A DNA stretch of 64,000 nucleotides from Synechococcus sp. CS-1332 (GTDB lineage Bacteria; Cyanobacteriota; Cyanobacteriia; PCC-6307; Cyanobiaceae), in assembly GCF_025127995.1 (NCBI RefSeq), contig NZ_JAHLYP010000054.1, forward strand, positions 1 through 64,000. The letters are read 5' to 3'. Positions 14,398-27,333 of this stretch are shown piece by piece. The notes below the pieces were generated by a model. That model searched no databases. It was not told the origin of the DNA and saw nothing but the letters and a program-made list of their open reading frames with translations. The position numbers were made by a program, and so were the translations under genes. The stretch's first letter is position 1. The number at the start of each line of letters is the position of its first letter.

Positions 14398-16428
14398 TCA
14401 GAGCACGGGCTGCCAGCTGACACTCCGGCTTTCGAACGTATCGCTCTGGTCGCTGAAGGCCAGCACCTGGTTGCGCCCGGTCTGCTTGGCCCGGTACATG
14501 GCACGGTCGGCCCTGGAGATGATCTCGTCGGAGTCTTCGCCAGGTTCGACCATCGTGACGCCGATGCTCAGGGTGATCGACAGGAAGCCAGCACTGGTGG
14601 GGATCGGTTCGGCCACGGCCCGACGCAGCTTGTCGGCGATGGTCACCGCATCGCTCAGGCTTCGCACCCCCTGCAGCACCACCATCAACTCGTCGCCACC
14701 AATGCGGGCGGCCATGTCACCGCTGCGCAGGCCCATGCGGATTCTCGTGGCCACGGCCCTGAGCAATTCATCTCCAGGCACGTGACCGAAGGTGTCGTTG
14801 ATCTCCTTGAAGTTATCGAGATCGCAGAACAACACGGCCGTGGCATGGCCTTGGCGCACCACACGGCCGGCGATGGCGGTGATCTGCTCCAACGCCTCGT
14901 GGCGGTTCACCAGCCCGGTCAGTTCGTCGGTGCAGGCGCGGCGGGCCAGCTCCCTTTCGGCAGCCACCTCCTGATCCACGGTCCGGAAGGATCCCACGAT
15001 GCCGTCGAGGTGGCCATCGAGATCTCTGTAGGGACTGGCATGCAGTTCCACCCAGCGTTGGCTGTGGTCGTGGGCCAGGGCCTGCAGCCTGCTGACAACC
15101 GTCCGACCGGCGGCGAGGGCGTGTAGATCGCGCTCCAGGGCCGGTTGCTCCTCGGCGGGGATGAAGCGGCTGAGGGGATGGCCGATCCAGTCTCCCGGCT
15201 GCCAACCCAGCATGCAGGTGAGCGACGGGGAGATCCAGCTGATCAGCTCGTCCTTGATCAGCAGCACCACATCGCTGGAGTTCTCCGCCAGCAGTCGGTA
15301 GCGCTCCTCCGAGGTGGCCAGGGCGGCTTCCGCCTGAACCATCTCGGTGACGTCGTTGAACTGGGCGATCACGAAGGCCGTGGTGCCGTCGGCATGGCGC
15401 GAGCAGGAGACACTGCAATCCACCCAGATGCAGCGGTCGGGCCGCTGGAGGATGCGCTTGCGCAGCCGGTAGCAGGCGCGTCGACCGCTGAGCAGTTCCT
15501 CCATCAGCGGGGCTTCGCTGGCCTGGTCCGCCGCCGGTGAGAACGCCTGCCAGGTGAGGCCCTCCAGGCCAACGTGGTCCTGGTCGAGCAGCCCGCTGCC
15601 AGTGGGGTTGATGGAGAGGAAATGCCCCTGGGCGTCGAGCAGGGCAATGCCGGTCGAGGCGTTCTCCATCGTGAGGCGCAGCCGTTCCTCCGAGGCCTCC
15701 AGGGCCTCCTTGGTGCGCTCCTCCGCCTGGCGCGCCTCGACTTCCCCCTGGATGTCGCGCCAGCTGCCGACCATCCCCAGCACCTCCCCAGCGGCCCCGA
15801 GCACCGGCCGCAGGGCCATGGACACCCAGCGGCTGCCCCCATCAGCGGTCCGGAAGCGAAGCTCGCAGATACTGCTGTTTCCCTGCAGGACCAGGCCGAT
15901 GCTCTGATCCAGCTGCTTGCGGTCCGCCTCCAGCAGCAGTTCATCGATGGTGCGTCCCTGTAGCTGCCGGGAGTCATGGCCCAGTAACTGGTGCACCGAC
16001 GGGGAGATCCAGGCGATCCGCCCGTTCGGGTCGCTGCTGAGGACCACATCCGGGGCATTTTCGGCCAGCAACTGGTAGTGCTGCTTGAGTTCCCGGTTGC
16101 TGCGGTCCTTGGTCTGCAGTTCCCGGGCCAGCTGCATTGACACCCAGGCCATCCCGATCAGCCCGACCAGCCGCAGCAGCAGTTCCAGCGTTGTGGGCTG
16201 GGGAGCCTGAAGGGACCAGACAACCGTCAGGACGATCGCCAGGCTCGTGAACCAACCCACCTGGCGTGGCGTGGCGAACGAGGCCGCCAGCACCACGGGG
16301 ATCCAGTAGTAAGGAAACAGCGTGAATCCCAGGCTTCTGGTGAGGGCCAGATCCAGCAGAAAGAGGCCGATCAGGGCAACAGCCGAGACGACGACTCTTG
16401 GATGGTAACGAGGGTGGGAAGGAATCAA
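14398..16428 (-). CDS. membrane PAS(x3)-GGDEF diguanylate cyclase
   Basis: A 676-residue protein: N-terminal membrane part with several helices (about 12-105), then three PAS sensory domains (about 118-235, 245-365, 370-490), then a GGDEF domain (about 495-665). The catalytic motif reads GGDEL at 577-581; the metal-binding DLDNFKEINDTFGH is intact, and an RxxD inhibitory site (RSGD) stands five residues before it. It is therefore a plausible active, feedback-inhibited c-di-GMP synthase. The start is a TTG without clear ribosome-binding site, so the N-terminus may be slightly shorter. It stands alone next to the other c-di-GMP genes. Confidence 0.88.
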   Translation of the reverse strand: MIPSHPRYHPRVVVSAVALIGLFLLDLALTRSLGFTLFPYYWIPVVLAASFATPRQVGWFTSLAIVLTVVWSLQAPQPTTLELLLRLVGLIGMAWVSMQLARELQTKDRSNRELKQHYQLLAENAPDVVLSSDPNGRIAWISPSVHQLLGHDSRQLQGRTIDELLLEADRKQLDQSIGLVLQGNSSICELRFRTADGGSRWVSMALRPVLGAAGEVLGMVGSWRDIQGEVEARQAEERTKEALEASEERLRLTMENASTGIALLDAQGHFLSINPTGSGLLDQDHVGLEGLTWQAFSPAADQASEAPLMEELLSGRRACYRLRKRILQRPDRCIWVDCSVSCSRHADGTTAFVIAQFNDVTEMVQAEAALATSEERYRLLAENSSDVVLLIKDELISWISPSLTCMLGWQPGDWIGHPLSRFIPAEEQPALERDLHALAAGRTVVSRLQALAHDHSQRWVELHASPYRDLDGHLDGIVGSFRTVDQEVAAERELARRACTDELTGLVNRHEALEQITAIAGRVVRQGHATAVLFCDLDNFKEINDTFGHVPGDELLRAVATRIRMGLRSGDMAARIGGDELMVVLQGVRSLSDAVTIADKLRRAVAEPIPTSAGFLSITLSIGVTMVEPGEDSDEIISRADRAMYRAKQTGRNQVLAFSDQSDTFESRSVSWQPVL

Positions 16429-16780: not shown

Positions 16781-17284
16781 ATGACCCCTTCGGCCGCAGT
16801 CAGCACCGACCCGCGCATCGCCCAGGTGATCCGCCGCCATGGCGCCGGTGCCGACGCGCTCATTGAGGTGCTGCACCAGGTGCAGGAGCTCCACGGGTAC
16901 CTGGCGCCGGAGTCCCTGCGGGAGGTGGCCACCGGGATGCGGCTGCCGTTGAGCCGCGTCCATGGCGTGGCCAGCTTCTACCACCTGTTCCGGCTGGAGC
17001 CCCCCACCGCCCATCGCTGCGCCGTCTGCCTCGGCACCGCCTGTTACGTGAAGGGAGGTGCCCAGGTGGCAGCCCGCATCGAGCAGCGGCTGGGGGTTCG
17101 CCTCGACGATCCCTCCGGCGATGGCGTCTGGGCCCTGCAGCACGTCAGCTGCCTGGGGGCCTGCGGCCAGGCGCCGGTGCTGGTGGTGGACGGGGTGCTG
17201 GTGACGCGGCTGCACGTGGACCCGCCCGAGGACCTGGACGCCCGGCTGGAGTCAGCCGGCCTGCCTCAGCGCACCACCACCTGA
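16781..17284 (+). CDS. hoxE: bidirectional [NiFe] hydrogenase diaphorase subunit HoxE
   Basis: HoxE (167 residues from the ATG at 16781) is the thioredoxin-like [2Fe-2S] subunit of the diaphorase HoxEFU, similar to NuoE. The N-terminal helical part ends in GVASFYHLFRL; the cluster ligands are Cys in AVCLGTACYV and in SCLGACGQAP. It helps pass electrons between HoxF and ferredoxin or NAD(P)H. A longer upstream frame has no family similarity. Unusually, hoxE is separated from hoxF by three genes, two of them on the other strand, so it must have its own promoter. Its end overlaps the convergent GGDEF gene by 19 bases. Confidence 0.95.
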   Translation: MTPSAAVSTDPRIAQVIRRHGAGADALIEVLHQVQELHGYLAPESLREVATGMRLPLSRVHGVASFYHLFRLEPPTAHRCAVCLGTACYVKGGAQVAARIEQRLGVRLDDPSGDGVWALQHVSCLGACGQAPVLVVDGVLVTRLHVDPPEDLDARLESAGLPQRTTT

Positions 17285-19074
17285 TGGGTCCCCAGGCCCC
17301 TGGATTGGCTCAGGGCCAGTTCCACCCTGCTGAGCATGGTCTTCCCGGTGGGATCCGAGCCACTCTGAAGGCTCAGCCCTGCGTTGATCTCCAGCCTTGG
17401 GGACGAGTCATGGCAGGGTGGTAGCTCCGCCTCGCTGACGACCCTGCGGATCTGCTCGGCCGTGGTGCGGGCCGATTCGAGCGGCTGATCCCAGAGAAGC
17501 AGCAGGAACTCATTGCCTCCGATGCGGAACAGTTCATCGTTGGGGTGAAGAAGCTGCTTCACATCGGCGATCAACTGGCGCAGGACCTCGTCCCCTTTCT
17601 GCCTGCCATGGAGCATATTGATCTGCCGTAGACCCTGCACTGCGAAGGCCAGGGAGGACAGCGGGACGGAGCAGGCACAGGCCCGTTCGGCGACCCGTTG
17701 CAGGCTGCTGTCGAGCTCGGAGCGGTTGCTCGCACCGGTGAGGGAATCGGTGCTGCAGTGGAGTCGCTGTTGCTCGATGGACTGCTCGAGTCGCCCGCTC
17801 ATGGCCGCGAGGTTCTGGCGCAGGCGGGCTTCTTCCCGCCTGTGTTCCTGAAGGCGGTGCGCCGTGCTGTGGATCTCGGCGATGAGACTGCCATAGCCCG
17901 AGACGTTCGCCGCGCCCGGGCGGCCGGAGAGGGCAGGCGGCTCGGTGGCGTCAGCCAGCGGCTGGTCGAGGGGGCGAAGCTGTTTCTCAATCAGAGTGGC
18001 CACAAGCTCGCTGAGCAGGGCCCCCAACAGCGTCATCCCGATCAGGGTGGTGAGCATGGCGGCACTCTGGGCCTGGAGCTTGAGCACCACGGGACGGGCC
18101 GGTTTCACGACCTGCACCGGCTGACCCCTGAAGTCGATGGTTGTGCTCCAGTACCCCCGGATCCATAGCCTGAGGGCAGGACGCTCCCCTCTGGGAACCA
18201 GGATCTGCAGCCCGTTCACCTTGATGTGCTCCTGCGGAGCGGGACGGAAATCAGTCGCCAGGCGCAGGAACAGAGCGGGATTGGAGCTGATCACGTTGCC
18301 ATCGCGATCCTTGAGAAGGAAAGCCGCCGCCCCGACGCTGGCCGGAAGCCCGCGGGATCGCGGCCCGAAAGCCCGGGGATCGGTCCAGACGGCGGCTTCG
18401 CCGACGGTCCGCAGGTTCTCCAGAACCCCTTCCTGGGTGGCGGTCTGCAGCAGGTTGCCGGAGAGAAGGGTGAGAGCCAGCGACGGCAACGTGATCGAAG
18501 CCAGCACCAGGGAGAACACGATGCCCCGCAGGGGTAACAGCCCCCTGCCCCTGCTGTTGTGCCACACCTGCACCAGCACGAACAGGAGGAAGGCCACCAC
18601 CGTGTTGGTCATGCCGTTGACCGCTTGCTTGGCGGCCGTGACTGTCACGTTGGTCGGGTCGATGTCAAGGACACCGCCGTAGAGGAAGAGCACCAAAGGT
18701 GTCCCGACCAGAAGCCAGTAGGCGATGTCGGCAAAGATGATGCGGCCGTTGAAGTCGTTCTCCGGCGGGCCGTTGAGGCGATTCACGAACACCGCCAGCC
18801 AGAGGGCCTCGGCGCTGAAGATCAGGATGGCCCAGGGATGTCCCCAGAGCTTCCAGGTGTAGAGGCTCGCCATGATGGCGATCGCCACGCTCCACCAGCC
18901 CCGCAGCCACAGCAAGGTGAGGGTGGAGGCGATCGGCCCCAGCAGGATCTGGATGCTGAAGAACAGTGGCACCGTGGCCACGTTGCCGAGGACGGCCAGG
19001 CCGGCGAGCAGGGCGAGGAGAAGACCCTGGCGAGAGGTCGTAAGGCCCCGGGGGAGTCGGATGGGACGGCTCAT
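17266..19074 (-). CDS. membrane protein with degenerate GGDEF domain
   Basis: A 602-residue protein with about seven N-terminal membrane helices (about 16-205), a periplasmic-like loop, a further helix near 338-360, a coiled-coil segment (about 405-435) and a C-terminal GGDEF-type domain (about 440-600). The active-site motif is GGNEF (519-523), and the segment that normally holds the Mg2+ Asp and KxxND reads FAVQGLRQINML, lacking both Asp residues. No RxxD inhibitory site precedes it. It is thus probably not a diguanylate cyclase and may bind GTP or c-di-GMP as a receptor or partner. The ATG overlaps the end of the EAL gene (ATGA). Confidence 0.85.
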   Translation of the reverse strand: MSRPIRLPRGLTTSRQGLLLALLAGLAVLGNVATVPLFFSIQILLGPIASTLTLLWLRGWWSVAIAIMASLYTWKLWGHPWAILIFSAEALWLAVFVNRLNGPPENDFNGRIIFADIAYWLLVGTPLVLFLYGGVLDIDPTNVTVTAAKQAVNGMTNTVVAFLLFVLVQVWHNSRGRGLLPLRGIVFSLVLASITLPSLALTLLSGNLLQTATQEGVLENLRTVGEAAVWTDPRAFGPRSRGLPASVGAAAFLLKDRDGNVISSNPALFLRLATDFRPAPQEHIKVNGLQILVPRGERPALRLWIRGYWSTTIDFRGQPVQVVKPARPVVLKLQAQSAAMLTTLIGMTLLGALLSELVATLIEKQLRPLDQPLADATEPPALSGRPGAANVSGYGSLIAEIHSTAHRLQEHRREEARLRQNLAAMSGRLEQSIEQQRLHCSTDSLTGASNRSELDSSLQRVAERACACSVPLSSLAFAVQGLRQINMLHGRQKGDEVLRQLIADVKQLLHPNDELFRIGGNEFLLLLWDQPLESARTTAEQIRRVVSEAELPPCHDSSPRLEINAGLSLQSGSDPTGKTMLSRVELALSQSRGLGTHQVVVR

Positions 19075-21839
19075 GGCAGGGGGACCTTCGCCGGTTCGCC
19101 GTCAGGCACCAGGACGGCAGCCGCTCCCTTCTTGAGTAGAGCTTCGAACGCTGTGGCGGCGAGGGGACGGCTGAACAGATAGCCCTGGAAGGCTTGACAG
19201 CCGCAGCGGCGGAGGAAGCCCAGTTCCTCTGGACGCTCCACTCCCTCCGCCAGGGTTCTGAACCCGAGCCCCACGGCCATGGCCAGGGTGGCGTGCACGA
19301 TCGCCTGGGAGGTGCGATTGGTGTCAATGTCCTTCACGAAGCAGCGATCGATCTTCAGCTTCTGGATGGGATACGTGTGGATCGTGCTCAGGGAAGAGAA
19401 GCCGGTGCCGAAGTCGTCGATCGCCAGTTCCACTCCCATGGCCTCCAGTTCCAGGAGCTGTTCGCGCGTGCTGATGGACTGCATCAGGCAACTCTCGGTG
19501 ATCTCCAGCTCCAGCCGACCGACGCCAAGGCCCGTGCGGCGCAGGCACCCCTTCACCAGATTCGGCACGGTCTGTCGTGGATCCTGGAACTGTCGGTTGG
19601 AGAGGTTCACCGCCAGCCGGCCGGGACTGAAACCGGCCTGCCCCCACACCTGCCACTGGCGGCAGGCGTCCTGCAGCACCCATTCCCCAATCCTGTAGAT
19701 CAGGTCGCTGGCTTCCGCGATGGGGATGAACTCCAGCGGCGAGACGAGACCGAATTTCGGACTGCGCCAGCGGAGCAGGGCCTCCGCGCCGAGGAGATTT
19801 CCCTGGCCATCGACCTGGGGCTGATAGTGAATCTCGAGTTGGTCCGAGTCCACCGCCCGCTGCAGGTGGGCTTCAATCGCCAGGCGGTGCCTGCTCCTGA
19901 GCGTCATCTTGGCCGAGTAGGGCAGGATCGTCTGCGGTCCCTGCTGTCGGGCCTGCCCAAGGGCTGTGGAGGCGAACTGAAGCAGGCTTTCCGGTTCCCT
20001 GGAGTCCTTCGGGAAGCAGCTCAATCCGGCGCAGGCCGAAAGGGCCAGTTCCAGCTTCTGCGCAGGGCCCGTCGGATCGGTGAGCCCGGCCAGGATCCTG
20101 CTGGCCATCTGCGGGCCAGTGGGATCAGCAGGCTCCAGGGTATGCACGATCAGGAACTCACTTCTCCCCACCTGGGCCAGGACGTCCGTGGGGCCCACGA
20201 AGCGGTCAAGCCGGTCGACAATGAGCTGCAATAGCCGATCCCCCTTGGCCTGGCCGAAGCTTTCCTCGATACGCTTGATGCCGTCCAGTTCGATCCAGAT
20301 CACTACCAGGGGTTGGGGCCGCTGGCACATCTCCCCCAGGCGCAGTTCGGCCATCTGCAGGTTGGGGAGCTTGGTGAGGGGGTCGTGATAACCCTGAAAC
20401 ACCAACTGCCGATCCTTCTCCCGGAGCCGGGTGAGATCGGCCATGGCGGCCACGAAATGGCTGGGTGCTCCGGACGCGTCCCGGAGCACCCCCATCCGTA
20501 GCCAGGCGGAGTAGACCTCCCCCGAAGGCCGTCGGTTCAGGATCTCCCCTTCCCAGTGGCCGATGTCTAGCAGCTGTTCCCGGAGCGCTTTGTAGAACGC
20601 GGGGGGCTGATGACCGGAGCCCAACAGGCGGGGGTTGCGGCCCACCAGCTCCTCCTCCCCGTAGCCCGAGATGGCGGCATAGGCCTCGTTGCAGGACAGG
20701 ATCGAACCACCGCTGTCGGTGATCACCACACCCTCCCCGATCAGGGAGAACGCCAGGCGATGGAGGCCGAACCACTGGAGGCTTGCCTCCCAGCTGCGGC
20801 GCATCGCCTCCATGGATCTCTCCCCCCGCTCGGCCATGTGGCTCCGCCGCAGGAACAGGCGGGTCAGCAGGGCCGCCAGGAGGGTGGTCGTCAGGCCAAG
20901 CAGGAGCACCGCCGCCCAATGAGGGAGCGGAAGGCCTGGAACACCCTGGGGAGCCTGCACCAGCAACAGCCAGCGCTGGCCTCCGCTTTCGAACGGCCGC
21001 GCCTGGGCGTGGGGTAACACCCCCTCCCGGGCGAGGTTGCGGGAGTCATAGAGAAGCTGGGCCGGGTCGGCGCGATCGCCGAAGTACAGCTGCAGATCCA
21101 CCGGCTCCCTCAGCTGGATCAACGGGTGGTTCAGGGCCGCCCGCAGCATGTCAGGAAGTGGCAAGGTGGCAAACGCCCAACGTGCTGGTGGCTTCGGCTT
21201 GTCCGAGTCCGCTTCGGTGTTGCTTCCGAAGGGGAGGGTCTGCACCAGGAACAGCGGCTTCCCCTTCTCGGGACGTCCCGGCAGGAGCAGGCTTTCCGGG
21301 GGGGTGGGGTCTGGGGGCAGGGCCTGGAAGGGGCGGGCGGAGCCCCGGATCAGTTGCCAGAGATCGCTCCCCAGCAGCCGGCGGCTGCCGGGATCCAGCG
21401 GAGCGATCAAGCGGATCGAGGCCTTTCCGGGTTCGGCCGAGGCGTAGCCCAGGGTGCCGATGCCCTCCAGAGAGCGGCCGTCAATCTCGAGGGCTCCGAC
21501 GAACCGTTGCAGCTCGGCAGGGGTAACTTCTTCCGAGGCCAGCTGCAGACCTGCAAGAGCCTTCAGCACCGATTGTGTGGTGGCCAGTTCCCTCCGCACG
21601 GCAATCACAACCAGATCGGCCATGGGTCGCTCCCTGTTGTCGTGGTCCTGCCTGGTGTGTTGGGAGCTGCTCCAGGTCAGCAGGCCAGTGCCGAGGATTC
21701 CGGCGGCCACCACAACGCATCCCAGAGAGCTCCAGTCCCGGTTGTCCTGTTCATCTGGCAGTGGGGTGGAAGGCAGGGGAAAGGGAGCGGAGAGTGGGGG
21801 CAGTGGAAATAAAAATGGTGCGCGATGTTGGTATTTCAC
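19071..21839 (-). CDS. CHASE-PAS-GGDEF-EAL c-di-GMP phosphodiesterase
   Basis: About 922 residues: one membrane helix, a periplasmic CHASE-like sensor, a second helix (ALLLGLTTTLLAALLTRLFL), a PAS domain, a GGDEF domain with broken motif GRSEF, and a C-terminal EAL domain. The EAL part keeps GAEALLRW, ELEITES, DDFGTGFSSL, KIDRCFVKDI and AEGVE, so it should hydrolyse c-di-GMP, with the GGDEF part acting at most as a GTP-binding regulator. The start is uncertain: GTG at 21839 would lie only 12 bases from the divergent substrate-binding gene, so a start nearer the first helix is likely. The stop overlaps the degenerate GGDEF gene. Confidence 0.87.
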   Translation of the reverse strand: MKYQHRAPFLFPLPPLSAPFPLPSTPLPDEQDNRDWSSLGCVVVAAGILGTGLLTWSSSQHTRQDHDNRERPMADLVVIAVRRELATTQSVLKALAGLQLASEEVTPAELQRFVGALEIDGRSLEGIGTLGYASAEPGKASIRLIAPLDPGSRRLLGSDLWQLIRGSARPFQALPPDPTPPESLLLPGRPEKGKPLFLVQTLPFGSNTEADSDKPKPPARWAFATLPLPDMLRAALNHPLIQLREPVDLQLYFGDRADPAQLLYDSRNLAREGVLPHAQARPFESGGQRWLLLVQAPQGVPGLPLPHWAAVLLLGLTTTLLAALLTRLFLRRSHMAERGERSMEAMRRSWEASLQWFGLHRLAFSLIGEGVVITDSGGSILSCNEAYAAISGYGEEELVGRNPRLLGSGHQPPAFYKALREQLLDIGHWEGEILNRRPSGEVYSAWLRMGVLRDASGAPSHFVAAMADLTRLREKDRQLVFQGYHDPLTKLPNLQMAELRLGEMCQRPQPLVVIWIELDGIKRIEESFGQAKGDRLLQLIVDRLDRFVGPTDVLAQVGRSEFLIVHTLEPADPTGPQMASRILAGLTDPTGPAQKLELALSACAGLSCFPKDSREPESLLQFASTALGQARQQGPQTILPYSAKMTLRSRHRLAIEAHLQRAVDSDQLEIHYQPQVDGQGNLLGAEALLRWRSPKFGLVSPLEFIPIAEASDLIYRIGEWVLQDACRQWQVWGQAGFSPGRLAVNLSNRQFQDPRQTVPNLVKGCLRRTGLGVGRLELEITESCLMQSISTREQLLELEAMGVELAIDDFGTGFSSLSTIHTYPIQKLKIDRCFVKDIDTNRTSQAIVHATLAMAVGLGFRTLAEGVERPEELGFLRRCGCQAFQGYLFSRPLAATAFEALLKKGAAAVLVPDGEPAKVPLP

Positions 21840-21851
21840 ACTAGTTCCTCC

Positions 21852-22907
21852 ATGCCTTATGGCCCACCCATGGACCCTGGCGCCAGCGAGGCCCATCCCC
21901 CGGGGAGAGCCCCCAGGGATCGGCGGTACCGTCTCGCCCGGATCGCCCTTTTGGGGCCACTGCTGCTGGCGATCGCCATGGGCTGTCAGCGCCAGCCTCC
22001 GCGGCTGATTCTGGCGGTGAACCCATGGCCGGGGTTCTCCTACTTCGCCCTCGCCAAGGCCGGCGCGCATTACGATTCCCGCCGGCTCAACCTCGATCTG
22101 CGCATTTTCGCCGACATGGGGGGGTCGATGCAGGCCTACGTCTCGGGTAGGGCCCAGGCCATCGCCACCACCACGATCGATGTCGTCACCATCTGCGGGC
22201 TGGCCCCGGAGAGATGTCCGGTGATCGTCTACGTCATCGATGAGTCCCGTGGTGCTGATCAGCTGCTGGCCCGCAAGGGGGTGCAGGGTGTGGAGGGCCT
22301 GGTCGGTCGTCCAATCGCTGTCGAACGCGGCAGCCTGGCGCCGTATCTCCTGGCCCGGGCGTTTGAGACCAAGGGCCTGCCTGCCCCCTCGCCTTCTCAG
22401 CTGCGTTTCCTGCCCGCCAGCTCATGGGCGGCGGCCCTGCGGGAGGGGCGGGTGGCGGCGGTGGTGAGCTACCCCCCCCGCAGCGAAATGCTGCTGCGCT
22501 CCCAGCCGCTGCAAACCCTGTTCACGAGTCGGCAACTCCCCTACGAAATCCTGGATGTGCTTGCCGTGGAACCCGAGTTCCTACACGTTCATCCCGAGGC
22601 GGTCCAGGCCCTTGTCAAGGGGTGGCAGAAGGTTCGGGCGGAGGAAAGCCAGCAACAGGCAACGGTGCGCCAGGAGATGGCGAGCCATCTTGGTCTTGGC
22701 TCCACCATGGCGCCAGCGATGGGGAGCGGGATCCGTTATCCGGGACTCCAGGAGCAGTATGAGCTGCTGAACCCGCTTCAGAACAATCTGCCCCCACTCC
22801 TGGAGAAGATCCGTCAGGTGCTCTATGCCAACCGGGTGATCCCCGCCAACACCCCATTGCCGGCCACGGTGGACAGCATCGCCCGGGACCTCGCCAGAGG
22901 CGAGTGA
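21852..22907 (+). CDS. ABC-type substrate-binding lipoprotein (NMT1/THI5 or SsuA-like)
   Basis: A 351-residue periplasmic binding protein. The N-terminus has a basic stretch and a hydrophobic core ending in AIAMGC, a lipobox-like site near residue 40. The body (LILAVNPWPGFSYFALAKAGAHYDSR..DLRIFADMGGSMQAYVSGRAQAIATTTIDVV) is typical of the nitrate/sulfonate/thiamine-precursor binding family. No permease or ATPase is adjacent. It is divergent from the EAL gene and lies 54 bases before hoxF on the same strand, so it may head the hoxF transcript or serve as a sensor. An ATG at 21870 is an alternative start. Confidence 0.82.
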   Translation: MPYGPPMDPGASEAHPPGRAPRDRRYRLARIALLGPLLLAIAMGCQRQPPRLILAVNPWPGFSYFALAKAGAHYDSRRLNLDLRIFADMGGSMQAYVSGRAQAIATTTIDVVTICGLAPERCPVIVYVIDESRGADQLLARKGVQGVEGLVGRPIAVERGSLAPYLLARAFETKGLPAPSPSQLRFLPASSWAAALREGRVAAVVSYPPRSEMLLRSQPLQTLFTSRQLPYEILDVLAVEPEFLHVHPEAVQALVKGWQKVRAEESQQQATVRQEMASHLGLGSTMAPAMGSGIRYPGLQEQYELLNPLQNNLPPLLEKIRQVLYANRVIPANTPLPATVDSIARDLARGE

Positions 22908-22961: not shown

Positions 22962-24575
22962 ATGCCCGCCCCCCCGCAGCTGCGCTGCTGCGATGCCAGT
23001 GGTTGCCGTTCCGCCGGTGGCCAGGCCCTGCGCGCCGCCCTGGAGGGCGCCCGTGATGCCGCCGGCCTCGCTGCTGATGCGCTGACGATCAAGCCGGTGG
23101 GTTGCCTGCGCCTCTGCGGCAGCGGCCCCCTGGTGGCCTGCGACGGTCCTGGCCCCACGCAACTCTTCGGGGGCGTGGCACCGGAGCACGCCGGGGCCCT
23201 GATCGCCGCCGGCCTCCCCACCAGCCAGGCCCCCGGCAACGGCGATCCCCTGGCGGCCCACCGCCTCGATCTGGAGGCCCCCTTCTTCGCCCTGCAGCAG
23301 TCCGTGGTTCTCGAGGGCTGCGGGCAGGTGAATCCCGAGTCCATCGACGACGCCCTCTCCCTGGGCGCCTATGGCCAGCTGCGCCGCGTGCTTGAGGACC
23401 TCACCCCCGAGCAGGTGCGCGACGAGGTGCGCCGCAGCGGCCTGCGCGGTCGCGGCGGCGCCGGCTACCCCACGGGTCTGAAGTGGGACACGGTGGCCCT
23501 GCAGCCCCCCGGCCCCCGTTATGTGGTCTGCAACGCCGATGAGGGGGACCCGGGCGCCTTCATGGACCGCAGCGTGCTCGAGAGCGACCCGCACCGGCTG
23601 ATCGAGGGGATGGCGATCGCCGCCTATGCCGTCGGCGCCGAGCGGGGCTTCGTTTATGTACGGGCGGAGTACCCCCTGGCGATCGAACGGCTGCGGCTGG
23701 CCCTGCAGCAGGCCCGCAGCCGGCACCTGCTGGGCAACCACATCCACGGCACCAGCTTCAACCTGCGCCTGGAGGTGCGGGTGGGCGCCGGCGCCTACGT
23801 GTGTGGGGAGGAGACGGCCCTGCTGCTTTCCATCCAGGGCCAGCGCGGCATGCCCCAGCCCCGGCCCCCCTTTCCGGCCCAGTCCGGTCTCTGGGGGGCC
23901 CCCACCTTGATCAACAACGTCGAAACCTTCACGGCCGTGCCGGCGATCCTGCGGCAGGGGGGCGACTGGTACGCCTCCATCGGCACCGAGCACAGCAAGG
24001 GCACCAAGGTGTTCGCCCTCTCTGGGGCGGTGGTCAACACCGGCCTGGTGGAGGTGCCGATGGGCACCCCCCTGCGCACGGTGGTGGAGGTGATCGGGGG
24101 CGGGGTGCCCGATGGCTCGCCGATCAAGGCGGTGCAGACGGGGGGCCCCTCAGGCGGGTGCATCCCGGCCGAACGGCTCGACACCCCCGTCGACTACGAA
24201 AGCCTGCTGGAGCTCGGCTCGATCATGGGCTCCGGCGGCATGGTGGTGATGGGATCCGGTACCTCCATGCCCGAGGTGGCGCGCCACTTCATGGGCTTCA
24301 GCGTCAACGAGAGCTGCGGCAAGTGCGTGCCCTGCCGCGCCGGCACCGTGCAGCTGGCCCAGTTGCTTGATCGCTTCGTGGAACGCCGGGCCACCCCCGC
24401 CGACATGGAGCGGCTCGATGCCCTCTGCCAGATGGTCAAGGTCACCAGCCTCTGCGGCCTGGGCCAGTCGGCCCCCAATCCGGTGCTCAGCACCCTGCGC
24501 TGGTTCCGCCATGAATACGAGGCTGCCTGCCGCGAGCCCGCGGCCTGCCTCGCCACAGGGACGGTGAAGCGATGA
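22962..24575 (+). CDS. hoxF: bidirectional hydrogenase diaphorase subunit HoxF
   Basis: HoxF (537 residues) is the FMN- and NAD(P)-binding subunit, like NuoF. The N-terminal thioredoxin-like part holds Cys in CRSAGG and GCLRLCGSG; the NADH/FMN sites are GLRGRGGAGYPTGLKWD and VCNADEGDPGAFMDR; the C-terminal [4Fe-4S] ligands are in ESCGKCVPCRAG and SLCGLGQ. It transfers electrons between NAD(P)H and the HoxU clusters. Its stop overlaps the hoxU start by four bases (ATGA). Confidence 0.97.
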   Translation: MPAPPQLRCCDASGCRSAGGQALRAALEGARDAAGLAADALTIKPVGCLRLCGSGPLVACDGPGPTQLFGGVAPEHAGALIAAGLPTSQAPGNGDPLAAHRLDLEAPFFALQQSVVLEGCGQVNPESIDDALSLGAYGQLRRVLEDLTPEQVRDEVRRSGLRGRGGAGYPTGLKWDTVALQPPGPRYVVCNADEGDPGAFMDRSVLESDPHRLIEGMAIAAYAVGAERGFVYVRAEYPLAIERLRLALQQARSRHLLGNHIHGTSFNLRLEVRVGAGAYVCGEETALLLSIQGQRGMPQPRPPFPAQSGLWGAPTLINNVETFTAVPAILRQGGDWYASIGTEHSKGTKVFALSGAVVNTGLVEVPMGTPLRTVVEVIGGGVPDGSPIKAVQTGGPSGGCIPAERLDTPVDYESLLELGSIMGSGGMVVMGSGTSMPEVARHFMGFSVNESCGKCVPCRAGTVQLAQLLDRFVERRATPADMERLDALCQMVKVTSLCGLGQSAPNPVLSTLRWFRHEYEAACREPAACLATGTVKR

Positions 24576-25291
24576 GCGTCGTCACTCTCAACGTCAACGG
24601 GCAGGACGTGGCGGTGCCGGCGGGGGCCAGCCTGCTGGAGGCCACCCGGGCGGCGGAGGCCAACGTCCCCACGCTGTGTCATCTCGAAGGGCTCACCCCG
24701 GTGTCCGCGTGCAGGCTGTGCCTGGTGGAAGTGGAGGGCTCGGGCAAGTTGCTTCCCGCCTGCAGCACCGCCGCCGCCGAGGGCATGGTGGTGCACACCC
24801 ACACCCCCCGGCTCAAGGAGTACCGGCGCATGACGGTGGAGCTGATCTTCGCCGAGGGCAACCACGTCTGCGCCGTCTGCGTGGCCAACACCCACTGCGA
24901 GCTGCAGGACATGGCCGTGACCGTGGGCATGGACCACTCCCGCTTCCCTTACCAGTACCCCCAGCGGTCGGTGGATGCTTCCCACCCCCAGTTCACCCTC
25001 GACCACAACCGCTGCATCCTCTGCACCCGTTGCGTGCGGGTCTGCGATGAGATTGAGGGGGCCCATGTGTGGGACATCGGCAGCCGCGGCGGCCAATGCC
25101 ACATCGTCGCCGGCCTCGATGAGCCCTGGGGCCAGGTGCAGGCCTGCACCTCCTGCGGCAAGTGCGTCGATGTGTGCCCCACCGGCGCCCTGTTCCGCAA
25201 CAGCGACACCACGGCCGAGAAGCATCCCAACACCACCTTGCCCGCCCTGTTGCGCACCGCCCGCGAGCAGCGCCGCTGGCACAACCAGTGA
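24572..25291 (+). CDS. hoxU: bidirectional hydrogenase diaphorase subunit HoxU
   Basis: HoxU (239 residues) carries the electron-relay clusters between HoxF and HoxY, equal to the N-terminal part of NuoG. An N-terminal [2Fe-2S] ferredoxin fold ([19 protein letters not shown]) is followed by a CVAN..C/H-type [4Fe-4S] site ([14 protein letters not shown]) and two ferredoxin-like clusters, [12 protein letters not shown] and [18 protein letters not shown]. It starts inside the hoxF stop; hoxY follows after ten bases. Confidence 0.97.
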
Positions 25292-25301
25292 CCCCCACCC
25301 C

Positions 25302-25880
25302 ATGACCCCCACCCCACCCGCCGCCAAGCTCCGCCTCGCCACCGTCTGGCTGGCGGGCTGCTCCGGCTGCCACATGTCCTTTCTGGATCTCGACGAGTTC
25401 CTCTTCGATCTGGCCGAGAAGGTGGATGTGGTGTTCTCGCCGGTCGGCACCGACGTCAAGATCTACCCCGAGAACGTCGACATCGCCCTGGTGGAGGGGG
25501 CGGTGGCCAACGTCGACAACCTCGAACTGGCCCTGCAGCTTCGCCAGCGCACCGCCCTGGTGATCTCCTTCGGCGACTGCGCCGTGACGGCCAACGTGCC
25601 CGGCCTGCGCAACCTGCTCGATGGCGGCCACGACAGCGCCAGGGCCGTGCTGGAACGGGGCTACCTGGAGCTGGCCGACGCCACGGGCCAGCTGCCCTTC
25701 GCCCCCGGCATCGTTCCCGAACTGCTGCCCCGGGTGCTGCCCCTGCATGAGGTGATCCCGGTGGATCTCTTCCTCCCGGGCTGCCCCCCGTCCGCCGAGC
25801 GCATCCGCGAGGCGATCACACCGTTGCTGGCCGGTGAGCGGCCCGTGCAGGAGGGGTCCGCCATGCTGCGGTTCGGATGA
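25302..25880 (+). CDS. hoxY: [NiFe] hydrogenase small subunit HoxY
   Basis: HoxY (192 residues) is the small subunit with the proximal [4Fe-4S] cluster next to the Ni-Fe site. Ligand Cys are in [12 protein letters not shown] (about residues 18-29), FGDCAV and FLPGCPPS, in the order seen in cytoplasmic Hox small subunits. It has no Tat signal, in keeping with a soluble enzyme. The ATG at 25302 lies ten bases after hoxU; the longer frame upstream is only a shadow of hoxU. Confidence 0.97.
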
Positions 25881-25890
25881 GGACAACGCC

Positions 25891-27333
25891 ATGACCCGCA
25901 CTGTCATCATCGATCCGGTGACCCGAATCGAGGGCCACGCCAAGATCACCCTCCACCTCGACGAGGCTGGCCACCTCACCGACACCCGCTTCCACGTGGT
26001 GGAGTACCGGGGCTTCGAAAAGTTCTGCGAGGGCCGGCCCTTCACCGAGATGGCCGGCATCACGGCCCGCATCTGCGGCATCTGCCCGGTGAGTCATCTG
26101 CTGGCGGCCGCCAGGACCGGCGACAAGCTGCTGGCGATTTCGATCCCCCCGGCGGCCGACAAACTGCGGCGGCTGCTCAACCTGGCCCAGCTCACCCAGT
26201 CCCACGCGCTCTCGTTCTTTCACCTCAGCAGCCCTGATTTCCTGCTGGGCTGGGAGAGCGATCCGGCCAAACGCAACGTCTTCGGCCTGATGGCCGCCGA
26301 CCCCGACCTGGCCCGGGCCGGCATCCGCCTGCGCCAGTTCGGCCAGCAGATCCTGGAGCTGCTGGGCGGCCGCAAGATCCACTCCGCCTGGGCGGTGCCC
26401 GGGGGCGTGCGCACCCCCCTGAGCCAGGAGGCCAAGGACTGGATCCTGGAGCGCCTGCCGGAAGCCCGCGCCACCGTGACCCTGGCGCTGGAGCTCTACA
26501 AAAAGCTGCTCGATGGTCCGCTGCAGAAGGAGCAGCGGGTCTTCGGCGACTTCCCCAGCCTGTTCATGGGCCTGGTGACCCCCAAGGGGCTCTGGGAGCA
26601 CATCGACGGTGGCCTTCGCTTCCGGGATGCGAACGGGGCGATCGTCGCCGACCAGCTCAGCGAGGACGACTACGCCGAGTTTCTCGGCGAGGCGGTGGAA
26701 CCCTGGAGCTACCTCAAATTCCCCTACTACAAGCCCCTTGGTTACCCGGACGGCATCTACCGGGTGGGCCCCCTGGCCCGGCTCAACGTCTGCGACAGCA
26801 TCGGCACCCCCTGGGCCGACCGGGAGCTGGCGGAGCTGCGCCAGCGCAGCGGCCATCCGGCCACTTCGAGCTTCGCCTATCACCACGCGCGGCTGGTGGA
26901 GATCGTGGCCTGCCTCGAAGCGATCGAGGCCCTGGTGCGCGACCCCGACCTGATGCATGGCCGCATCCGTCTGCGCGCCTCCCTCAACCGCAACGAGGCG
27001 GTGGGCGTGAGCGAGGCGCCCCGGGGCACCCTCTTCCACCACTACAAGGTGGATGACGACGGCCTGCTCACCAGCGTCAACCTGATCATCGCCACTGGCC
27101 AGAACAACCTGGCGATGAACCGCACCGTGCACCAGATCGCCCAGGAATACATCCCCGATCCGGTGCCCGCCGGCGCCGAGATCCCCGAGGCGATGCTCAA
27201 CCGGGTGGAGGCGGGCATCCGCTGCTTCGACCCCTGCCTCTCCTGTTCCACCCATGCCGCCGGCCAGATGCCGCTGCGGCTGCAGCTGCTGGCCGCCGAT
27301 GGCACCGTGCTGGCCGAACGCCTGCGGGGATGA
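25891..27333 (+). CDS. hoxH: [NiFe] hydrogenase large subunit HoxH
   Basis: HoxH (480 residues) holds the Ni-Fe active site that interconverts H2 and protons. The N-terminal [12 protein letters not shown] and the L1 motif [11 protein letters not shown] supply two Cys ligands; the C-terminal L2 motif [10 protein letters not shown] supplies the others. About 24 residues follow the His of L2 (AAGQMPLRL..), which is the peptide removed by HoxW after nickel insertion. The sequence is of the NAD-linked bidirectional type, not the uptake HupL type. The stop overlaps hoxW (ATGA). Confidence 0.98.

Follow-up and report, generated by a model that had tools for sequence, protein, structure and literature searches.

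The periplasmic solute-binding protein (SBP) NspS of Vibrio cholerae, a system also found in Sinorhizobium meliloti, is reported to be separate from MbaA, the inner-membrane GGDEF/EAL receptor whose state it sets (PMC8967002, PMC9993111). Here we describe a cassette of three genes in Synechococcus sp. CS-1332 that resembles this arrangement. It was found in a stretch of 64,000 nucleotides (hereafter the window; contig NZ_JAHLYP010000054.1, positions 1 to 64,000) and comprises the genes of a degenerate GGDEF membrane protein, here called NEF, of an EAL phosphodiesterase and of an SBP. Within the genes of the bidirectional hydrogenase, the cassette parts hoxE from hoxFUYH, lying between hoxE and hoxF. 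We somewhat favour the reading that its products form a three-protein, SBP-gated receptor in which NEF, as a pseudo-cyclase, relays the ligand state of the periplasm to the phosphodiesterase. The features of the cassette are:

17266..19074, minus strand: NEF gene, 602 aa
19071..19074, minus strand: ATGA start/stop overlap of the EAL and NEF genes
19071..21839, minus strand: EAL phosphodiesterase gene (predicted); start codon uncertain, longest frame to 22070
21870..22907, plus strand: SBP gene (TauA/SsuA-like lipoprotein); diverges from the EAL gene and ends 55 bp before hoxF

Like nspS and mbaA, the SBP gene stands beside a gene with GGDEF and EAL domains. The two systems differ in that NspS belongs to the PotD family and binds polyamines, whereas the SBP of the window matches NMT1_2 and is TauA/SsuA-like. 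Furthermore, MbaA is one bifunctional protein with an active cyclase, whereas in the window the phosphodiesterase and a presumably dead cyclase are two proteins, which would leave no cyclase in the cassette. Because of the other SBP family, the lack of an active cyclase and the separate subunits, the cassette is like NspS-MbaA in its proposed mode of working but is not a member of that system. In PdeA of Caulobacter, a degenerate GGDEF domain modulates the EAL phosphodiesterase with GTP within one chain. In FimX, likewise one chain, GTP is described as acting through a degenerate GGDEF domain on the EAL phosphodiesterase (PMC8846402); unlike in both, the degenerate domain of NEF sits in a separate membrane protein, beside a second degenerate GGDEF domain in the EAL protein. 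RmcA of Pseudomonas aeruginosa, according to the same source (PMC8846402), uses a periplasmic binding-protein fold as a c-di-GMP (cyclic di-GMP) sensor, but there the SBP_bac_3 domain is fused into the enzyme, whereas the window has a free lipoprotein of another SBP family. Finally, CdgI of Escherichia coli is described as a lone degenerate GGDEF protein whose N-terminal domain is shared with active diguanylate cyclases, as is the case for NEF, and whose GGDEF domain forms strong heteromeric contacts; unlike NEF, CdgI keeps the inhibitory site (I-site) and binds c-di-GMP, and that account mentions no SBP partner for it (PMC5635695). For cyanobacteria, we found no report of an SBP gene beside c-di-GMP genes among the open-access papers surveyed, judged by titles and abstract openings.

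The EAL protein is composed, in order, of a transmembrane helix, a CHASE-like periplasmic region, a second transmembrane helix, a PAS domain, a degenerate GGDEF domain (GRSEF) and an intact EAL domain. Pfam recognises EAL (2.4e-62), GGDEF (4.8e-23) and PAS. The longest frame (19071-22070) encodes 999 aa, and the in-frame GTG at 21839 gives 922 aa. In the window protein and seven orthologues, the EAL-domain residues E686, N745, E777/E779, E782, D808, D809, K829, E865 and Q885, to each of which we presume a catalytic role, are invariant (8/8), and the GGDEF motif reads GR(S/G/N)EF in all eight. This bears out the initial annotation, made from the letters of the window alone, by which all EAL residues are kept and GRSEF replaces GGDEF. 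With its catalytic residues complete, the protein is a predicted c-di-GMP phosphodiesterase; its intact EAL residues do not fit a LapD-type receptor, in which a degenerate EAL domain binds c-di-GMP but does not hydrolyse it. A CHASE domain (PF03924) is called in the homologue at locus L105, which is 32% identical over that region, and is not called in the window protein itself.

In NEF, a membrane region of several helices is followed by a small periplasmic domain, a transmembrane helix, a helical linker and a GGDEF domain (GGNEF) that appears to be dead. GGDEF is the sole domain matched by Pfam (3.4e-20), and residues 1-425, searched for a named membrane sensor domain, match nothing in Pfam at E 0.5. 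An AlphaFold2 model, whose input alignment took in intact homologues, has a mean predicted local distance difference test (pLDDT) score of 84.8 and matches GGDEF structures such as 6hbz_B (Z 24.5, root-mean-square deviation 2.2 A, 164 aligned residues); the VIA-align rows, and with them the fold comparison, span mostly residues 402-602. In the window protein, Ala and Gln stand in place of the metal-ligand Asp residues, the motif reads GGNEF and His occupies the position of the I-site Arg (HxxD), just as the initial annotation had noted the loss of both metal-binding Asp residues and of RxxD. These losses extend to the cassettes of other genomes. In PleD numbering, D327 is Ala or Ser and E370 is Asn or Ser in 10/10 cassette copies, and HxxD replaces RxxD in the same ten. 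The phosphate-site lysines K332 and K442 are changed to Arg, and R446 is lost in 9/9 copies scored, as the copy of genome G132 ends before that position. The guanine-recognising N335 and D344 are retained in 10/10. GGNEF is the form of this genome and the remaining copies read GGSEF, GGSAF or GGSKF; thus, it is the loss of the motif, and not the letter N, that is conserved.

The GG(D/E)EF signature and the metal ligands are therefore gone while the GGDEF fold is kept, and NEF is predicted to be no longer an active diguanylate cyclase. From the residues retained, GTP binding is possible. Binding of c-di-GMP is unlikely and was rejected on the loss of the I-site; with the I-site Arg being His in all ten copies and NEF having no EAL domain, the proposal that NEF is a c-di-GMP-binding membrane partner is not supported. 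The ten intact or nearly intact copies also reject an assembly or frameshift artefact. The degenerate domain is maintained by purifying selection, its pairwise ratio of nonsynonymous to synonymous substitution rates (dN/dS) being 0.20-0.56 in the five pairs listed, similar to that of NEF's own membrane part (0.18-0.51).

The start/stop overlap of the EAL and NEF genes is kept in 10/10 cassette genomes (9 ATGA, 1 GTGA), and the four shared bases had been correctly recognised in the window. The further suggestion that the two proteins work as a pair is supported by this overlap, by the purifying selection and by the joint presence, decay and absence of the whole block. To follow the block, we used 42 genomes of the genus, 36 of which have HoxF, and the hoxE-hoxF interval was examined in 30 of the 36. 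In 10/30 the cassette is complete or almost complete, in 3/30 it has decayed and in 17/30 it is missing. Among the holders are Synechococcus sp. BO 8801, several Cyanobium strains and Aphanothece; of the ten, G132 is split over two contigs and has an early stop in NEF, and G307, a metagenome-assembled genome, has a break in the SBP gene. What is left in the decayed genomes G090, G005 and G286 is either remnants or a copy whose three genes are all broken. The stages of decay seen at loci L038, L039, L040, L035 and L075 comprise three broken genes, remnants of ~0.8-0.9 kb, an early stop in NEF and a break in the SBP gene. Where hoxE and hoxF share a contig, the interval of cassette genomes measures 5.6-5.7 kb and that of the decayed genomes 5328, 872 and 809 bases. 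Of the 17 empty genomes, 16 have 33-147 bases there and G175 has 884. The Hox-protein tree unites every cassette and decayed row in one clade (100/100), which also holds two empty ones, G113 and G280, whose placement is less well supported. Since the tree joins these rows, the block was probably present in the ancestor of the clade and was then lost or broken about five times.

The initial annotation overlooked the divergent SBP gene as well as the position among the hox genes, and it is the SBP that makes a receptor gated from the periplasm, rather than a pair, the likelier picture. The SBP frame is open from 21825, and its start is probably at 21870 because the orthologues have no earlier start. 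The protein has the lipobox pattern IAMGC and matches NMT1_2 in Pfam; searches by profile and by fold, as well as against curated families, group it with TauA and SsuA (Foldseek against TauA, E 1.4e-18). Although it shares their fold and profile match, it differs from TauA and SsuA in scoring under every curated NCBIfam cut-off and in having no ABC (ATP-binding cassette) ATPase as a neighbour: a search for the motif pair of such ATPases gave none within 3 kb of the gene.

We then considered 54 SBP loci that score at least 240 bits with our profile A3, a subset of all such matches. Of these, 18 were reached through NEF or hox genes and 36 were chosen for their SBP score from places where no full-length NEF neighbour was yet known; 20 lower-scoring SBPs from genomes of the same family served as controls. 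A GGDEF, EAL or NEF gene is found within 3 kb in 41/54 loci (17/18 and 24/36, respectively), compared to 2/20 controls, in both of which the neighbour is 2.7-2.9 kb away. The single miss among the 18, L071, ends at a contig edge. Conversely, the ABC ATPase motif is found within 3 kb in 1/54 relatives versus 16/20 controls. It should be noted that these counts are not independent events, since the loci are related. The SBP family is associated with c-di-GMP genes and rarely with an ABC ATPase. Scores above 240 bits are confined to the window's own family in a phylum-wide sample of 386 genomes.

The arrangements vary. Two SBP genes and a diguanylate cyclase gene may be joined by a divergent NEF gene, with or without the EAL protein, or by divergent genes of GGDEF-EAL proteins; elsewhere, one SBP gene precedes a diguanylate cyclase or is divergent from a GGDEF-EAL gene. 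In tandem SBP pairs, one partner only has a lipobox (5/5 pairs checked). The diguanylate cyclases that adjoin SBP pairs in other genera, divergent from the NEF protein, are intact: GGDEF is kept in them, and RxxD in most.

In the receptor that we favour, the SBP lipoprotein, being of the taurine/sulfonate-binding type, would capture a small ligand in the periplasm and, loaded or empty, would dock on NEF from the periplasmic side; the CHASE-like region of the EAL protein may be a second docking site. Docking would set the posture of the helical linker and the dead GGDEF domain of NEF. This domain, in contact in trans with its degenerate counterpart in the EAL protein, would then alter phosphodiesterase activity; a guanine nucleotide may be bound to NEF as a cofactor. 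We infer the docking from the gene association and the NspS-MbaA precedent, and the contact between NEF and the EAL protein from the gene overlap, the maintenance of the dead domain and the degenerate-GGDEF heteromers of E. coli.

More tentatively, these proteins could be part of a pseudo-cyclase family of picocyanobacteria that lost catalysis on becoming an SBP-gated subunit and acts in trans on the adjacent c-di-GMP enzyme, which is an intact diguanylate cyclase in some genera and, by prediction, a phosphodiesterase in the window. In the window's clade the module would have moved into the hox genes, and so the ligand sensor may be expressed with hoxFUYH. The comparison took in 33 NEF-type proteins that possess a GGDEF domain; 19 of them are SBP-linked, counting G132 although its SBP lies on a different contig, and 14 are not. 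A protein was called degenerate when at least one of ten active-site residues was missing, a definition fixed after the alignment had been viewed. By this measure, 19/19 SBP-linked proteins are degenerate, and 10/14 of those without an SBP are complete.

Several observations weigh against the receptor. The correlation between degeneracy and SBP linkage comes down to 1-2 independent contrasts on the N-terminal tree, which gives it no phylogenetic power, and a single SBP-linked clade is not rejected (approximately unbiased test, p-AU 0.13). The SBP-linked NEF proteins of L044, L046 and L069 keep the signature and the metal ligands, with the phosphate-site residues alone missing, and may be enzymatically active; L059, L060, L062 and L063, in turn, are degenerate with no SBP nearby. 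As for the SBP family, 10/54 loci have no recognised signalling neighbour (L095, L098, L101, L109, L129, L132, L133, L136, L138 and L139). The joint presence and loss concerns one contiguous block, which a single deletion takes away as a whole. Finally, at L105, L107, L108 and L134, an SBP is paired with a GGDEF-EAL protein without NEF, and so NEF may not be the docking site of the SBP in the window.

If the receptor is real, a dead cyclase would serve as a separate receptor subunit, and SBP control of c-di-GMP would extend to picocyanobacteria and to binding proteins of the TauA/SsuA kind. Most c-di-GMP enzymes have no known input; in the window, with the SBP gene beside the enzyme genes, a ligand screen on the soluble protein could name the input directly.

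It is possible, if doubtful, that NEF is a sensor of GTP (or GDP), binding the guanine nucleotide without metal and switching the phosphodiesterase by the GTP level in the manner of FimX and PdeA. The N335 and D344 positions kept in all ten copies and the replacement of K332 and K442 by Arg are consistent with this, as is FimX, whose degenerate GGDEF domain is described as letting GTP raise phosphodiesterase activity (PMC8846402), whereas the loss of both metal ligands and of R446 argues against it. Such a role is compatible with the SBP-gated receptor.

The main rival, which we consider unlikely, is that the SBP signals straight to the EAL protein through its CHASE-like region, NEF taking no part in the relay and being either an accessory or a former cyclase in decay. 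It is the main rival because the closest relatives of both proteins form a pair without NEF: the nearest relatives of the window SBP (43-47%) and EAL protein (41-44%) are divergent SBP/GGDEF-EAL pairs of the same genus (L105, L107 and L108, with L134 similar). The cassette copy of G132 also loses the end of NEF through its early stop. A dispensable NEF, however, is at odds with dN/dS below 1 in its dead domain, with an EAL/NEF overlap kept in 10/10 genomes and with the presence of NEF-type proteins next to SBP pairs in other genera where that EAL protein is missing. Direct signalling is compatible with the relay through NEF, and both could hold.

That the cassette regulates, or is co-regulated with, the bidirectional hydrogenase, with the SBP gene leading hoxFUYH and the phosphodiesterase acting on hydrogenase expression, we regard as improbable. 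The surrounding features are:

14398..16428, minus strand: PAS-PAS-PAS-GGDEF diguanylate cyclase; motif intact, conserved neighbour
16781..17284, plus strand: hoxE; shares 19 bases with NEF, the two 3' ends overlapping
22962-24575, plus strand: hoxF
24572-25291, plus strand: hoxU
within 24975-25880, plus strand: hoxY
25834-27333, plus strand: hoxH, name inferred from gene order

The cassette, its remnants or broken copies lie between hoxE and hoxF in 13/13 genomes (G132 on two contigs), and since the SBP gene is on the same strand, 55 bp upstream of hoxF, the SBP and hydrogenase genes may share a transcript. Against a regulatory tie, the hox genes occur without the cassette in 17/30 genomes, the loci of more distant NEF genes, L041-L050, gave no hox match, and a search for promoter and terminator consensus gave no excess over chance (1 site in the region, 0.7 expected). 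The hox position, constant as it is, may be of historical origin. No RNA element was found between the genes at Rfam gathering thresholds.

That a nutrient SBP and two unrelated c-di-GMP genes are chance neighbours is highly improbable: c-di-GMP genes are numerous, with 9 EAL matches in this genome, but the same arrangement recurs in 10 genomes, with similar ones elsewhere, and control SBPs seldom have such neighbours (2/20).

The PAS-GGDEF cyclase at 14398-16428 was set aside as a cassette member. It persists where the cassette has decayed (L039, L040 and, in part, L038) or is absent (L073, L074), and is therefore probably outside the cassette. The tail-to-tail overlap of hoxE and NEF (17266-17284) has a similar counterpart in orthologous loci.

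Other SBP and NEF loci have further neighbours. In L103 and L106, two of the 13 loci without a c-di-GMP gene within 3 kb, the SBP gene precedes a large sensor gene with a 4-base overlap; in L103 (562-6659), Pfam recognises a hybrid histidine kinase and, after it, an HD-domain response regulator. By eye, genes near the SBPs of L095, L098 and L101 resemble seryl-tRNA synthetase, and in L095 and L101 also site-2 protease. The degenerate NEF-like genes of L059, L062 and L063 are near a formylglycine-generating-enzyme-like gene, and those of L059 and L063 also near a sulfatase-like gene (by eye).

The membrane region of NEF (residues 15-225, window 18400-19030), which has no Pfam name, has matches in 51/386 cyanobacterial genomes. 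The three large matching proteins that were examined further are sensor or hybrid kinases. This sensor region is fused to a histidine kinase in L053 (Pfam) and in L051 and L054-L056 (our own profile), and to a SpoIIE phosphatase in L067 (Pfam) and, by similarity of the N-terminus only, in L068.

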